Shown here: positions 17,809 to 63,287 of the stretch, one piece after another
Position numbering within the stretch: position 1 is the stretch's first letter
Layout: the number at the start of each line of letters is the position of its first letter
Assembly: GCA_026391775.1 (NCBI GenBank)
Contig: JAPLDK010000011.1
Location: 1 to 64,000 of the forward strand
Length of the DNA stretch: 64,000 nt
DNA from: Bacteroidota bacterium
GTDB taxonomy: Bacteria; Bacteroidota; Bacteroidia; Bacteroidales; FEN-979
Reading direction: 5' to 3'
Notes under the pieces: generated by a model
What the model was told of the DNA's origin: nothing
Databases searched by the model: none
Seen by the model: the letters and a program-made list of their open reading frames with translations, nothing else
Position numbers and translations under genes: made by a program

Positions 17809-19137
17809 TTACTTCTTTGGAGTTGCCGGTTTTGCATCTTTCACATCGAGAAGCTCTACATCGAAAATCACCGTCGAATAAGGAGGAATTTTTCCCATAT
17901 CCCGATCCCCCCATCCCATACTTGAAGGAATGATAAGTAAAGCTTTTCCGCCTACATTCATCATCCCGACTCCTTCCTCCCATCCTTTGATCACCTGACC
18001 CTGGCCAAGGGTGAATTCGAAAGGCTGGTTGCGATCGCGGCTTGAGTCAAATTTGGTTCCGTTTAAAAGAGTGCCTGTATAATTGACTGTAACAGTCTTA
18101 CCCGCTATAGCCTTTACGCCGGTTCCTTTTACCTTTTCAATGTAATAAATTCCGCTTGCAGTTGGTTTGGCTGTAATGTTTTTCTCTTTAAGATATTTGT
18201 TGAGATTAGCAGTTTCATCACTCTTGTTCTGCTTCAGTTTTTCATCTGCTTTCTTCTTTTCTTCGGCAAGAGTCTTATCATGTTCCGCCTTGGTCTGCAC
18301 ATTGATAATCTCCAGTTCATAAATCATGGTTGAGAAAGGAGGCACAACGGCACCTCTTCCGGTCTCACCAAAAGCAAGTTTTGAAGGAACAATCACCGTT
18401 GCTTTTCCGCTTTTCTTCATCATCCCAATGGCTTCTTCAACGCCAGGCGTGTCAAAACGCTTCCCATACTCAAAAGCAATGGGCTCTCCCCTTTCATAGG
18501 ATGAAAACAGCTGTTTGCCGTCGATCAGGAATACTTTGAAATGAACGCTGACCCAAGCTCCTGTATCAATTTTTATACCTTTTCCGGCAATAGATTCAAT
18601 AAAATATATGCCGGAAGTTGTAGGCTGAACAGCTATGTTCTTATCCTTAATATATTTTGCAAGGTTATCCTGCTCTTTTTTAATGAGGTTCTGGGGATTG
18701 TCGACCGTGAGCAATTTAAGATAGAATGTAATTACCGAATTCGTATCAATAAATTTCGGACGTGAAGGCTGACGGAATGTTTTCTTGAACAATGAATCGG
18801 CATTTATCAGAAAGACAGCGCTGTCACCGGCTGACAAAAGTTTTAAGCCCTCGTAAATATCACCTTTAAAGTCAGATGCCGGTAGCTGAAACCTGACCGG
18901 TGAACCACCCTGGCTTTTGCGGCTGTCGAACATGACAGAGTCTTTATATTGCCAACGCATCTGCAATGATACCCAGTCACCTATCCTTGGTTTGACGGTA
19001 TCCGTTGATCCTTTGATAATTTTATAATACAAGCCATTGGCAGTTTTATCATATCCGGCATACTTGGATGAACAAGCAAAAGTCGTCAACGCCAACAGCA
19101 ATAAAAATCCCAAGGATTTAAGGAAATTGTTTTTCAT
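17809..19137 (-). CDS. Lipoprotein with three FKBP-like domains
   Basis: A 442-aa predicted lipoprotein (signal peptide with LTTFAC at the lipobox). Three FKBP-like domains follow in tandem at about 30-160, 175-290 and 325-435. The third is canonical (VTVNYTGTLLNGTKFDSS, then VIKGWEEGVGMM and IPPYSTVIFDVELL); the second keeps FDTPGVEEAIGMMKKSG and the VPPFSTMIYELEI end; the first has lost most active-site aromatics and is probably structural. It likely acts as a prolyl isomerase/chaperone for outer membrane or secreted proteins in the periplasm. It heads an operon with the T9SS cargo and PorP/SprF genes, 9 nt upstream of the PKD protein gene. Confidence 0.85.
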   Translation of the reverse strand: MKNNFLKSLGFLLLLALTTFACSSKYAGYDKTANGLYYKIIKGSTDTVKPRIGDWVSLQMRWQYKDSVMFDSRKSQGGSPVRFQLPASDFKGDIYEGLKLLSAGDSAVFLINADSLFKKTFRQPSRPKFIDTNSVITFYLKLLTVDNPQNLIKKEQDNLAKYIKDKNIAVQPTTSGIYFIESIAGKGIKIDTGAWVSVHFKVFLIDGKQLFSSYERGEPIAFEYGKRFDTPGVEEAIGMMKKSGKATVIVPSKLAFGETGRGAVVPPFSTMIYELEIINVQTKAEHDKTLAEEKKKADEKLKQNKSDETANLNKYLKEKNITAKPTASGIYYIEKVKGTGVKAIAGKTVTVNYTGTLLNGTKFDSSRDRNQPFEFTLGQGQVIKGWEEGVGMMNVGGKALLIIPSSMGWGDRDMGKIPPYSTVIFDVELLDVKDAKPATPKK

Positions 19138-19339
19138 GTTTTTGATTTTAATTGTTTTTAATGATTATTAAGAGATTAAAATGTATATAAATAAGATATT
19201 GTTAATTGATTCATTATCAATATTATAGAATTTTTTTTTAGTCTTTCAAACATTTTTAAAGACTTGAACAAGATAGTAAAGTCCGTTACAGCCAGATCAA
19301 TAAAACCAGGCTTACTTATTAACACTTTGGCAAAGGTTA
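19138..19339. other. 202-nt AT-rich spacer between the two FKBP genes
   Basis: No open frame of useful length. The stretch next to the 17809-19137 gene is very AT-rich and probably holds its promoter, but no exact TAnnTTTG box could be placed on the minus strand. No convincing terminator hairpin was seen. Confidence 0.5.
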
Positions 19340-19918
19340 TTAACGTCCTCTCTGGACCGGGTCAAGGATTTGAATATCATAAACCAGGGTGGCGCCGGCA
19401 GGGATTTTTTTCAGGTCTCCAAGCAGCCCGTATGCAAGATGAGAAGGGACAATCAGTTTGGCATGGTCCCCCAACAACATGAACAGGAGGGCTTCCTGCA
19501 AACCGGTTTCCCCCTCGGTAGTCCCGGGATATATGATTTTTATTCCAAGTGAATCGGAATTATAAATTGCATTGCCATTAAGAAGTGTAAGGCTGTATTT
19601 CAGGCGGACTTCCCCACCCATTTTTATCTTTTTACCCTTTCCTTTTTCATAGATCATATACCTCAAACCGGTAGTTGTTTTAAGCATTTTCCACTGATGC
19701 CTTGAAATATACTCCTCGATTTCATCATTCTCAGACCTCACAAGCTGTTGATTATAATTGAGCAGTTTATCATCCATCATTCGGATATGGTCGGTTGCCC
19801 GGGCACGCCTTGTTTCCGGTTCACATGAAGTAAACATGCATACGAAACTCATACTGGAAACGGCTATGAAAAGCAGCTTGCATGCCCCTGAAATTCCCGG
19901 AAAAGAAGAACCAGCCAT
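19340..19918 (-). CDS. FKBP-type prolyl isomerase lipoprotein, GldI-like
   Basis: A 192-aa lipoprotein (ATG at 19918; lipobox FTSC). After an acidic helical segment it has one FKBP domain: GLRYMIYEKGKGKKIKMG, then EVRLKYSLTLLNGNAIYNS, LQEALLFMLLGDHAKLIVP and IPAGATLVYDIQIL. This layout matches GldI, the gliding-motility/T9SS-associated isomerase of Bacteroidota. A TTG six nt upstream is also open but the ATG is more likely. The upstream nrnA gene ends 2 nt before, so the two form a unit. GldI assignment is by family resemblance only. Confidence 0.75.
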   Translation of the reverse strand: MAGSSFPGISGACKLLFIAVSSMSFVCMFTSCEPETRRARATDHIRMMDDKLLNYNQQLVRSENDEIEEYISRHQWKMLKTTTGLRYMIYEKGKGKKIKMGGEVRLKYSLTLLNGNAIYNSDSLGIKIIYPGTTEGETGLQEALLFMLLGDHAKLIVPSHLAYGLLGDLKKIPAGATLVYDIQILDPVQRGR

Positions 19919-19920
19919 CC

Positions 19921-20958
19921 TCAATCGTTATATACATGTTTCAGCTGTTCTCTGAATTCCGGGAGTAATTCTAGGAATCTTTCAACAGTTTTCCGGAGCG
20001 ACATGGAGCAATTGGCTCCTGAAGCATTGCTGTGCCCGCCTCCTCCGAAATGTTCACGGGCAAGGCGATCCACAGAGAAGTTGCCTTTTGAACGGAAGGA
20101 AACCTTAACATGGTCATCCCTTTCCATAAACAGAGCGGCAAGATTTATATCTTTAATCGAAAGAGCATAATTAACAACACCTTCGGTATCGCCTACCTGA
20201 TATCTGAACCGTTCAAGGTTTTCTTTTGTAAGTACGATATATGCGGAATGGAATTCATGAAGAACTGTAAGCCCGTCACTGACTGCATATCCCAGAAGCC
20301 TTAAGCGGCTTTCAGAGTATGTGTCGTAAATAAGACGGTGTATATGTTCACCGTCTATACCCAGGCGGAACAGTTCGGCTGTTATAAGGTAAGTCTTGAC
20401 GTAATTACAGGCATAGCTGTAAGATCCTGTGTCAGTAACGATCCCGGTGTACAGGCAAGAAGCAATCTCTTTGTCTAACAGATTCTTGTACCCTGATTCA
20501 CAGATAAAATCATAAACCAATTCAGAAGTGGACGAGATTTTGCTGAATGAAATCCTGTAAGCGAAGTCTTCAGCAGGATATAAGTGATGATCTATCAGAA
20601 TCTTAACTGATTCAGATTTTTTTATCACCTTACCCAGGTCATTGAGCCTGCTCAGATTATTGAAATCAACACAAATAATGAGATCTGACTCCTTAACAAT
20701 TTTTTTACATGAACCAGGATCCTTTTCATATATCATGATTTCTTTCGCACTGGGCAACCAGGCCAGAAACTCTGGATAAAGATCAGGTATGATGACCTTG
20801 ACGCTGAACCCTCTTTTTTTAAGGTACAGGAACATAGCCAGGCTTGAGCCGATGGCATCCCCATCAGGATTAGTATGGGTTGTCAAAATTATCTTACCGG
20901 ATTTGTCCAGTACTTCCCGGATCTTGTTAAAATCCGTATTTTCCAAATAGTTTTCCAT
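19921..20958 (-). CDS. nrnA: DHH-family phosphoesterase (oligoribonuclease/pAp phosphatase)
   Basis: A 345-aa protein starting at MENYLENTDFN (ATG at 20958); longer open frames upstream run through the promoter. The DHH domain shows THTNPDGDAIGSS, ICVDFNNLSRL and ILIDHHLYP, whose Asp and His residues bind two Mn ions; the DHHA1 domain ends in HFGGGGHSNASGANC. The family degrades 2-5 nt RNA fragments and dephosphorylates 3'-phosphoadenosine 5'-phosphate in the cytosol. Length is close to the usual 310-345 aa. It is divergent from ndk, with overlapping promoter regions, and is followed by the GldI-like gene. Confidence 0.9.
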   Translation of the reverse strand: MENYLENTDFNKIREVLDKSGKIILTTHTNPDGDAIGSSLAMFLYLKKRGFSVKVIIPDLYPEFLAWLPSAKEIMIYEKDPGSCKKIVKESDLIICVDFNNLSRLNDLGKVIKKSESVKILIDHHLYPAEDFAYRISFSKISSTSELVYDFICESGYKNLLDKEIASCLYTGIVTDTGSYSYACNYVKTYLITAELFRLGIDGEHIHRLIYDTYSESRLRLLGYAVSDGLTVLHEFHSAYIVLTKENLERFRYQVGDTEGVVNYALSIKDINLAALFMERDDHVKVSFRSKGNFSVDRLAREHFGGGGHSNASGANCSMSLRKTVERFLELLPEFREQLKHVYND

Positions 20959-59976: not shown

Positions 59977-60058
59977 GCGGATGTGGCGTAATTGGTAGCC
60001 GCGCAAGACTTAGGATCTTGTGCCTTACGGAGTGGGGGTTCGAGTCCCTTCATCCGCA
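59977..60058 (+). tRNA. tRNA-Leu (anticodon TAG)
   Basis: An 82-nt class II tRNA: acceptor GCGGATG/CATCCGC, anticodon loop CTTAGGA (TAG), a variable arm TGCCTTACGGAGTG, and T loop TTCGAGTC. CCA is not encoded. It precedes the tig-clpP-clpX genes by 75 nt. Confidence 0.95.
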
Positions 60059-60133
60059 CAAAATCGATATAAACGGCCTGAACTGATAAGTTGTCAGGTA
60101 AAAATAACAGCCTATTAATCATAATAAAAATTC

Positions 60134-61357
60134 ATGAATTTATCCAGAGAAAACACAGGTGAACTTACCGCAACTATCCGGCTGGAAATAACACCGGAAG
60201 ACTACACTGAACAGGTAAACAAAGTGATCAAAGATTACCAGAAAAAAGCGAATATACCGGGTTTCCGTCCGGGACATATACCTGCAGGGCTGATCCGCAA
60301 AATGTACGGGAAAGCAGTTCTGGCCGAGGAAGTAAACAAGCTGATATCCGAGTCGCTTAATAATTACATTAAGGAACAGAATCTTGACATGCTTGGGAAC
60401 CCCATTCCCAACCAGGAAAAGAACTCAGCAGTCAATTTTGAGACCCAGACAAGTTTTGAGTTCTTTTTTGATATTGGGTTTGCACCTGAGTTTAAAATTC
60501 CGTTTGGGCCCGAGACAGAGGTAGAGGATCTTGAAATTACGGTTGATGACAGTATGATTGACAAATATGTGGATGAAACCAGGAAACGGTTCGGAACACC
60601 AGTAAAGGCTAAAGAAAGCGGACAACCCGCCGAATCTGACTCAGCTGCTGAGCCAATCACCGAAGTAGAAAATCCGGTTGAAACCAAGACTCCCGAAGTT
60701 ATCCCTGCAGAAATGACACCCGAGTTTTTTGAGAAGGTCTATCCGGGTGAAAAACTTGAAACCGAAGAACTGTTCAGGGAAAGGATCAGGAAAGATGCTT
60801 TTGCCAGTTTTGCCCAGGAGACAGACCGGATATTCTTTAACAAAGCCACTGACATTCTTGTAAAGAGCACGAATATTGATCTTCCTGACGAATTTCTGAA
60901 ACGCTGGCTGCTTGAATATAATGAGGGCAAATTCACCCAGGAACAGATCGACAAGGATTATCCTTCGTTCAGGGAATCAATGAAATGGCAGCTGATCGAG
61001 AACAGGATCATCCGTGAGAATGAAATAAAGGTAAGTGATGAAGACATAAGGAATTACATTCGGACTGTCATGCTTCACAGGGTCGGCTCGGAATTTGTCG
61101 ATCCCGAAATGGAGAAAAAATATGAATCTATCGTCGATGCATTCATGCAGAATAAGGAACAGGTGCAAAGGATCAACGACCAACTGTATAATGCACGCAT
61201 GCTGGGTCTTTTCAAAATAAAACTTAGCCTTCTTAAAAAAGAAGTCTCCTACGATGAATTCATTAAAATAGCATCGGAAACGCATGAGCATGAGCATCAC
61301 GACCACGAACACAGTCATGATCATGAACACGACCATAACCATAAACATGAACACTAA
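60134..61357 (+). CDS. tig: Trigger factor with no recognisable PPIase domain and a His-rich tail
   Basis: A 407-aa protein. The ribosome-binding domain (1-115) has the signature IPGFRPGHIPAGLIRKMYG. The C-terminal chaperone domain (about 196-380) is also clear (DEFLKRWLLEYNEGKFT). Between them the FKBP-like PPIase domain of about 95-110 residues expected in trigger factor is replaced by about 40 residues rich in Glu, Pro, Ser and Thr (155-195). The last 26 residues contain 13 His. It should still act as a ribosome-bound chaperone. It precedes clpP by 17 nt, the classic order. Confidence 0.9.
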   Translation: MNLSRENTGELTATIRLEITPEDYTEQVNKVIKDYQKKANIPGFRPGHIPAGLIRKMYGKAVLAEEVNKLISESLNNYIKEQNLDMLGNPIPNQEKNSAVNFETQTSFEFFFDIGFAPEFKIPFGPETEVEDLEITVDDSMIDKYVDETRKRFGTPVKAKESGQPAESDSAAEPITEVENPVETKTPEVIPAEMTPEFFEKVYPGEKLETEELFRERIRKDAFASFAQETDRIFFNKATDILVKSTNIDLPDEFLKRWLLEYNEGKFTQEQIDKDYPSFRESMKWQLIENRIIRENEIKVSDEDIRNYIRTVMLHRVGSEFVDPEMEKKYESIVDAFMQNKEQVQRINDQLYNARMLGLFKIKLSLLKKEVSYDEFIKIASETHEHEHHDHEHSHDHEHDHNHKHEH

Positions 61358-61374
61358 TTTTAATAATTGAGACT

Positions 61375-62052
61375 ATGGACGAATTTTCAAAATATGCAAT
61401 CCGGCACAGGGGCATCAGCGGACTGAGCCTTGAAAAGTATAAGAGTATTTCAGCCAATTACATTTCTCCTACAATCATAGAGGAAAGACAGCTTAACATT
61501 GCCACTATGGATGTTTTCAGCCGCCTGATGATGGACAGGATTATTTTCCTGGGAGTCCCCATTGACGATTATGTAGCCAATATCATCCAGGCCCAGTTAT
61601 TGTTCCTTGAATCTGTGGATTCCCATAAGGATATTCAGATTTACCTGAACACACCGGGTGGGGCTGTTTATGCCGGCCTTGGGATTTACGATACTATGCA
61701 GTATATCAATCCCCATGTTGCAACTATCTGTACAGGGATGGCTGCCTCAATGGGCGCTATTTTACTGAGTGCAGGCGAAAAAGGAAAAAGGACTGCCCTG
61801 AAACATTCCAGGATACTTATCCATCAGCCTATGGGCAGTGCGGAAGGCCAGGCCTCCGATATCGAAATCACAACCAGGGAAATCCAGAAGCTGAAAAAAG
61901 AGCTTTATGAGATCATATCCCTCCATTCGGGCCAGCCATACAAAAGGATACTGAAAGATGCCGATAGGGATTACTGGATGACTGCAGAAGAAGCAAAGGA
62001 ATATGGCATGATTGATGAGGTTCTTCTGAAGTCAAAAAAAGAAACGCAATAA
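61375..62052 (+). CDS. clpP: ATP-dependent Clp protease proteolytic subunit
   Basis: A 225-aa serine peptidase of normal length. [14 protein letters not shown] holds the catalytic Ser, RILIHQPMG the His, and a downstream Asp (REIQKL region) completes the triad. It forms the 14-mer chamber that degrades proteins fed by ClpX. The stop overlaps the clpX start as TAATG, so translation is coupled. Confidence 0.96.
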
Positions 62053-63287
62053 TGGCAAAGACTGAAGAACGGTGTTCCTTCTGCGGCCGGGAAAAACGTG
62101 AGGCCAGGGTGCTGATTGCAGGGCTGAATGGTCATATTTGTGACAATTGTGTTCAACAGGCCCAGACCATACTGGAGGAAGAACTTTCGTCAAAGAAACC
62201 CAAGAGTTTCCAGGAATACGCCTTGCTGAAGCCACATGAGATCAAGAAGTATCTCGATCAGTATGTTATTGGACAGGATGAGGCCAAACGAGTGATCTCT
62301 GTTGCCGTTTACAATCATTATAAACGGATCCGGCACGCAAAGGAAGCCAGCGAGGATGATATTGAGCTTGAAAAATCAAATATCATCATTGTTGGTGAGA
62401 CCGGTACAGGGAAAACCCTGCTGGCCAGAAGTATTGCAAAAATGCTGAATGTGCCATTCTGTATAGCAGATGCCACAGCCCTTACCGAAGCAGGATATGT
62501 TGGGGAAGACGTTGAGAGCATACTTGCAAGGTTGCTGCAGGTTGCCGACTATAACATGGAAGCCGCAGAAAGAGGCATTGTCTTTATTGATGAGATCGAT
62601 AAAATTGCAAGGAAAAGCGATAATCCTTCCATCACCAGGGATGTTTCCGGAGAAGGCGTCCAGCAGGCCCTACTGAAAATGCTTGAGGGCTCTGTGGTAA
62701 ACGTTCCTCCCCAGGGTGGGCGAAAACACCCGGAACAACGGATGATACAGATCAATACCCAGAACATCCTGTTCATCACAGGAGGTGCATTTGACGGCAT
62801 TGACAAAAAGATCGCAAACCGTTTACAGACTAACCGCATAGGGTATAAGATCGATAGGAAAAGAGAGGAAGTTGATAAAGACAATATTCTTCAGTATATA
62901 TCTCCGGTTGACCTGAAAGCATACGGTCTGATTCCTGAACTCGTGGGAAGGATGCCTATTGTAACCTTTATGCACGCCCTGGACAGGGCCACGCTGAAAC
63001 GGATCCTCCTGGAACCGAAAAATTCGCTGGTGAAGCAGTATACCAAGCTTTTTGAGATCGATAATATCAAGTTGAGTTTTGATGATGATGCATTGGATTT
63101 CATTGTCGAAAAATCAGTCGAATTCAAACTCGGTGCAAGAGGGCTGAGAGCTATTCTTGAAGGTGTCATGAATGATGCCATGTTCGAACTTCCTTCCAAA
63201 GCCAATGTAAAAAGCCTGAAGGTTAACATTGCCTTTGTTGAAGAGAAATTCAATAAAACCAGTTTATCCAGGCTTAGAGTTGCCTGA
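62052..63287 (+). CDS. clpX: ATP-dependent Clp protease ATP-binding subunit
   Basis: A 411-aa AAA+ unfoldase. The zinc domain [17 protein letters not shown] with CDNCV, then Walker [14 protein letters not shown], Walker [13 protein letters not shown] and the sensor region [20 protein letters not shown] are present. It unfolds tagged proteins, including SsrA-tagged ones, for ClpP. It overlaps clpP by one base. Confidence 0.97.

Follow-up and report, generated by a model that had tools for sequence, protein, structure and literature searches.

Trigger factor is a chaperone that receives new proteins at the ribosome. It occurs in a natural and recurrent variant that lacks its FKBP-like head, and one such gene lies in the window analysed here, a 64,000-nucleotide stretch of a Bacteroidota genome (Table 1). 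The 407-aa product is probably, at odds we put at roughly three in four, a headless true orthologue that would work as a ribosome-bound, holding-only chaperone, loss of the head having been permitted by an earlier decay of catalysis in the phylum.

The tig frame is uninterrupted in the ORF list, and both domains flanking the missing head are retained. Pfam matched Trigger_N over residues 1-148 (E = 1.3e-34) and Trigger_C weakly (21.7 bits against a cut-off of 22.7), while FKBP_C gave no match in the 407-aa protein up to E = 1. Between the landmarks G154 and M194 lie 39 residues, an interval that spans 95-120 residues in the 34 complete with-domain relatives measured and 106-107 in relatives from the window's own family. 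Both the N- and the C-domain are folded in the AlphaFold2 model (mean pLDDT 88.2), with helices across residues 196-388 at high confidence; residues 164-179 are without secondary structure at pLDDT < 50, and pLDDT falls below 50 again from residue 391 to the end (391-407). In Foldseek searches, the N-domain matched 1oms/1p9y (TMt ~0.8), and the best PDB matches of the model were the full-length trigger factors 2vrh, 1w26, and 3gty, aligned over 445-451 columns at E values of 3e-11 or better; no FKBP appeared among the 50 matches listed of 110. The ribosome-binding signature GFRxGxxP is present in all 137 aligned rows, including 34 of 34 gap rows. Instead of the three-domain architecture with an FKBP-type PPIase, the 407-aa protein thus has a 39-residue spacer, no FKBP_C match, and no FKBP fold. 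This agrees with the original prediction, which from sequence had described clear ribosome-binding and chaperone domains around only about 40 residues in place of the FKBP-like domain and had proposed structure prediction as a check. It had set the gap at 60587-60726, and the gap is indeed there, but that span covers residues 152-198 and is wider than the spacer proper.

Table 1 Features of the trigger factor locus and of other prolyl isomerases in the window.
Feature	Coordinates	Strand	Basis
FKBP lipoprotein, 2 FKBP_C domains matched, predicted exported, not a cytosolic substitute	17809..19137	-	profile match; N-terminus
Single-domain FKBP, lipoprotein-like N-terminus	19340..19924	-	profile match; N-terminus
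tRNA-Leu, upstream of tig	59977..60059	+	ARAGORN
tig, trigger factor, 407 aa	60134..61357	+	ORF; Pfam; NCBIfam TIGR00115
N-terminal ribosome-binding domain, residues 1-148	60134..60577	+	Trigger_N; structure matches
GFRPGHIP ribosome-binding signature, residues 43-50 (pattern GFRxGxxP)	60260..60283	+	sequence
Spacer where the FKBP-like head would sit, residues 155-193	60596..60712	+	39 residues; pLDDT
C-terminal chaperone domain (helical linker + arms), residues 194-380	60713..61273	+	AlphaFold2; Foldseek
Disordered His/Glu/Asp-rich tail, residues 383-407	61280..61354	+	sequence; pLDDT
clpP, conserved neighbour	61375..62052	+	ORF; profile match
clpX, conserved neighbour	62052..63287	+	ORF; profile match

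By its N-domain, its C-domain, its gene order, and its single copy, the 407-aa protein is a true trigger factor. The order tig-clpP-clpX is the same in the window and in E. coli, and the genome holds one Trigger_N place (draft, 80 contigs, 91% complete), so that no complete second trigger factor was found elsewhere at that level of completeness. The NCBIfam model TIGR00115 scored the protein at 169.8 bits, below its equivalog cut-off of 180.2, as it did five of five gap proteins (140.1-171.4 bits), whereas five of five with-domain proteins scored above it (189.0-477.2). Since this shortfall tracks the missing domain, it is no argument against orthology; it does mean that annotation based on TIGR00115 misses headless trigger factors.

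The same gap is widespread in the family of the window genome. Among its 43 genomes, 30 have the gap (25 measured between landmarks and 5 judged by span), 12 keep the domain, and in one (G062) the gene is cut by a contig end; all eight genomes of the window's own genus are headless. Errors in sequencing, binning, or assembly, or decay into a pseudogene, might be suspected in a draft genome of 80 contigs and 91% completeness, but have a negligible probability given a single-copy gene with conserved flanks and a gap found in 30 of 43 family genomes with frames open throughout. Assembly error and frameshift in particular are ruled out by the recurrence of the gap across species of the family, and the original claim of a real reduction holds. 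Within genus g4, the gap is found in L025 and L026 while L036, L037, and L039 keep the domain. On the tree, L026 pairs with L037 as its sister (100/94 support). Their DNA aligns on either side of the absent segment, and remnants of the first strands survive in L026, the pattern expected of an in-frame deletion.

The gap also occurs beyond the family. In an even sample of 295 genomes from the order, 287 had a trigger factor match and 280 of these keep the domain; the seven that lack it comprise G000 and G012 from the window's own family and G088, G142, G282, G325, and G326 from four others (150 rows formed two groups, at -14 and -9 versus at least 48, and the remaining rows were judged by eye). 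These counts answer the survey for the same gap that had been proposed with the original prediction. In a named collection, further gap loci were found among the best 80 of 563 relatives, in rumen Paludibacteraceae-like genomes (L102, L107, L110, L111, L120) and in the Bacteroidales genome Emb289P1bin57 (L099), so that the tally of gap lineages is a lower bound. Judged by span, the domain is retained in 36 of 36 sampled genomes belonging to the class's other orders, which so far confines head losses to the order. The phylum sample also took in 111 genomes of other classes, of which 2 had no match and the proteins of 20 were read. At first sight a further loss, the trigger factor frame of G045 (family f10) breaks inside the middle domain into frames of 209 and 167 aa (L064, G045:C154), owing either to faulty sequencing or to decay of the domain.

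A tree of the N- and C-domains suggests some 9-11 separate origins of the gap among the lineages sampled, which extends the original prediction: the reduction it saw in this gene is real, but it is not a one-off. For 76 rows, selected from the existing set and 10 additional ones so as to cover each gap lineage and its kin, the tree required 11 changes between kept and lost states, 9 of them forced by well-supported (starred) branches, and bootstrap trees gave 11-11 changes (5-95% range). A 137-row tree gave 7 changes, 6 of them forced, after removal of a fragment (L064), four rows cut by contig ends (L101, L152, L156, L158), and four duplicate places by sequence, contig, and length (L087, L088, L091, L092). 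A single ancestral loss is rejected on the nine changes forced on starred branches. Because regain of a domain in place is unlikely, we infer that these changes were losses rather than gains, a direction on which the tree itself is neutral.

Relatives that keep the middle domain provide a likely reason why it could be lost. FKBP_C matched none of the 104 with-domain proteins scanned from the order and class, namely 34 at E 0.1, 9 at E 0.03, and 61 at E 0.005, the last set including one member labelled Chlorobiota and, with 25 of its 48 families listed, possibly hiding a single FKBP_C match in the E range 0.005-0.1. The same profile matched the E. coli trigger factor used as a control at E = 2.8e-18, and 3 of 20 with-domain proteins from other classes of the phylum. 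The domain is nonetheless probably FKBP-like in fold. In the model of the Bacteroides luti trigger factor (mean pLDDT 92.6), residues 158-262 align with many FKBPs, best with SlpA (2m2a; Z 7.3, 86 aligned, rmsd 3.3) and also with the E. coli head (1l1p; Z 5.7, 94 aligned, rmsd 4.2), although these Z values are middling and, by the tool's own warning, anything below 8 may reflect just a common arrangement. A profile comparison with hhalign placed the domains in register, with a whole-protein probability of 100.

PMC9527764 names Glu178, Ile195, Phe198, Tyr221, and Phe233 as the key residues for activity in E. coli. Across 115 with-domain rows, identity to E. coli at these positions was found in 70, 0, 2, 2, and 81 rows, respectively, on a mapping that rests on 18-20% identity and for which hhalign gave the same register. 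Three of the five are therefore replaced, while Glu178 and Phe233 are mostly kept, the latter position being aromatic in 108 of 115 rows; none of the 115 has a residue aligned with Met194, and Phe177 and Phe185 each persist in one row. The middle domain was also less conserved than both its neighbours in 21 of 23 disjoint pairs, a comparison without a control from catalytically active trigger factors. The FKBP-like domain against which the gap had originally been set is thus not an ordinary FKBP in these relatives. The replacements suggest a decay of catalysis in the head of with-domain relatives, and the domain removed from the 407-aa gene was probably already catalytically poor. Such decay may extend outside the phylum, as Thermotoga maritima, scanned as a control, has a Trigger_N match and no FKBP_C match.

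Other evidence weighs against a head that is wholly inert. Glu178 and Phe233 persist in the rows counted above, and the retention of the domain in 280 of 287 order genomes indicates that it does something there, perhaps substrate binding. Chloroplast CrTIG1 (PDB 7zgi) resembles these heads in having lost several key FKBP-domain residues, and differs from the 407-aa protein in that its FKBP domain is present and weakly active, at a level 100-fold below that of E. coli according to PMC9527764. CrTIG1 carries replacements at several of these positions and is still weakly active, so some activity may persist in the relatives' domain as well.

Could the sequence now occupying the gap have taken over the job of the head? 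The spacer might make acidic contacts with clients, or the His-rich tail might bind metal as SlyD does, either of which would leave the head redundant. A Glu/Pro/Ala-rich make-up does recur within the family (Glu 23%, Pro 14%, and Ala 14% over 28 family gap rows), and the tail is common there, 27 of the 28 gap rows having at least 6 His, but rare elsewhere, where 3 of 96 rows have it. The spacer varies freely, though. Its identity to that of the window is 6-63% within the genus, whereas the N-domain stands at 84-94% and the C-domain at 74-90%, and spacer length ranges over 11-57 residues in the family, down to 11 in G002 of the window's own genus, and over 9-19 residues in most gap lineages outside it; the spacer of L102 has 40 residues and is Lys- and Ala-rich. 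Such free variation in both sequence and length argues for a spacer without a specific partner. The tail, for its part, is present in 9 of 12 with-domain members of the family and missing in gap lineages outside it, a distribution indicating that it neither needs nor causes head loss and ruling it out as the cause. A takeover by spacer or tail is accordingly quite unlikely, and the original suggestion that an acidic linker had replaced the domain probably does not hold in the sense of a linker with a job of its own. The tail of SlyD binds metal, and by analogy the His/Glu/Asp-rich tail of trigger factor may do so too. His-rich sequence was further observed within the middle domain itself, as a stretch in the trigger factor of G058 (L053:616-2013) and as His-containing inserts in those of L176, L182, L185, and L190 from other classes.

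Alternatively, the isomerase function might have moved to another cytosolic protein, freeing the head to go. In the window's own genome, searches found two FKBP_C proteins, both lipoprotein-like, one cyclophilin (Pro_isomerase) with a signal-like N-terminus, and three frames matching parvulin models, two having a signal-like N-terminus and one a membrane anchor, parvulins having been sought in this genome only. All of these scored as exported in a hydropathy test, a home-made score (not SignalP) that takes the best start within the first 90 residues and for which 2 of 145 trigger factor control frames reached 2.29. Across 13 family genomes, the test covered 54 rows (some proteins twice), 4 of them cut at the 5' end; among the other 50, which include the cyclophilin of the window's genome, 49 scored at least 2.29. 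The exception, at 0.98, is the second cyclophilin of G022, a gap genome of genus g3 (L240, G022:C2; 178-aa frame), which has no export signal and is a candidate cytosolic isomerase. Read by eye, this second cyclophilin type looks exported in L241 and L242 and is ambiguous in L259. The mean number of cyclophilin matches is 1.6 for the 30 gap genomes versus 1.2 for the 12 with-domain genomes, an excess that comes from genus g3, so that some isomerase substitution is possible in that genus. Extra FKBPs as compensation were rejected, as FKBP_C matches are not commoner in gap genomes (3.7 per genome versus 4.0), and G013, a gap genome of the family that is 99% complete, has none at all. A transfer of function is quite unlikely as the explanation. 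The two exported FKBPs of the window form a cluster at 17809-19924 on the minus strand, and a like cluster occurs in most family genomes.

Because every isomerase found in the window's genome looks exported or membrane-anchored, its genus may have a cytosol with no recognised prolyl isomerase. That this cytosol actually runs without one, and that, more widely, the head in this phylum is a non-catalytic lid that was repeatedly deleted, is a tentative extension to which we give rather worse than even odds. In E. coli, strains from which all six cytoplasmic isomerases had been removed could be built, and were viable, on minimal medium only, according to PMC7353009.

Our preferred reading, a headless orthologue made possible by earlier catalytic decay, can be set out as a series of putative steps. 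Catalysis would have decayed early in the trigger factors of the whole phylum, and the head would then have been deleted repeatedly, the part lost being a slow-binding lid rather than an enzyme; that catalysis had already decayed is probably what permitted the loss. In the remaining protein, the N-domain would dock on the ribosome, the cradle and arms of the C-domain would hold the growing polypeptide, and the two would be joined by a disordered spacer whose sequence is dispensable. With its flanks intact and no FKBP fold, the protein is still best read as having only a holding function, as originally proposed, and this proposed mechanism is well supported by its anatomy and by published work on E. 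coli.

Several known proteins resemble the 407-aa protein in part. The headless C-domain fold is matched by MPN555 of Mycoplasma pneumoniae (PDB 1zxj; Foldseek probability 0.97), which differs in not being a trigger factor by sequence and is not known to have a ribosome-binding domain. Chloroplast Tig2, reportedly the ribosome-binding domain only, with its C-domain lost too, serves ribosome biogenesis. Like the 407-aa protein, Tig2 is a naturally truncated trigger factor (PMC11731035). The same layout is that of an engineered headless E. coli trigger factor, in which the N-domain is joined to the C-domain without the head and which retains chaperone function according to PMC8185961 (citing Kramer 2004 and Merz 2006); a 2010 paper on the engineered E. 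coli protein is cited in PMC4626277. That version is man-made from a parent with an active isomerase, whereas the 407-aa protein is natural and recurrent and the domain of its parents lacks the FKBP signature. Domain loss also marks extra trigger factor homologues of myxobacteria and others, but there it is the N-domain that is lost, in second copies, while here it is the head, in the only copy (sections of PMC11559001). The same sections describe N-domain loss in a survey of 15,575 genomes identified by TIGR00115, COG0544, or PRK01490, and no mention of head loss was noted in them. In the open-licence literature, subscription papers being mostly outside this scope, we found no report of a trigger factor that naturally lacks its head alone, or of the decayed head in Bacteroidota.

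The isomerase head of trigger factor was found to be dispensable in E. coli, and its purpose has been puzzling since. Natural lineages appear to have removed it about ten times, in some cases after the split of near neighbours such as L026 and L037, and species pairs whose otherwise similar chaperones differ in the presence of the head offer a natural test of the need for this module. The trigger factor of the phylum may never have needed isomerase activity, and, if it is true that the cytosol of the window's genus lacks isomerases, this would bear on whether cytosolic prolyl isomerisation must be catalysed.
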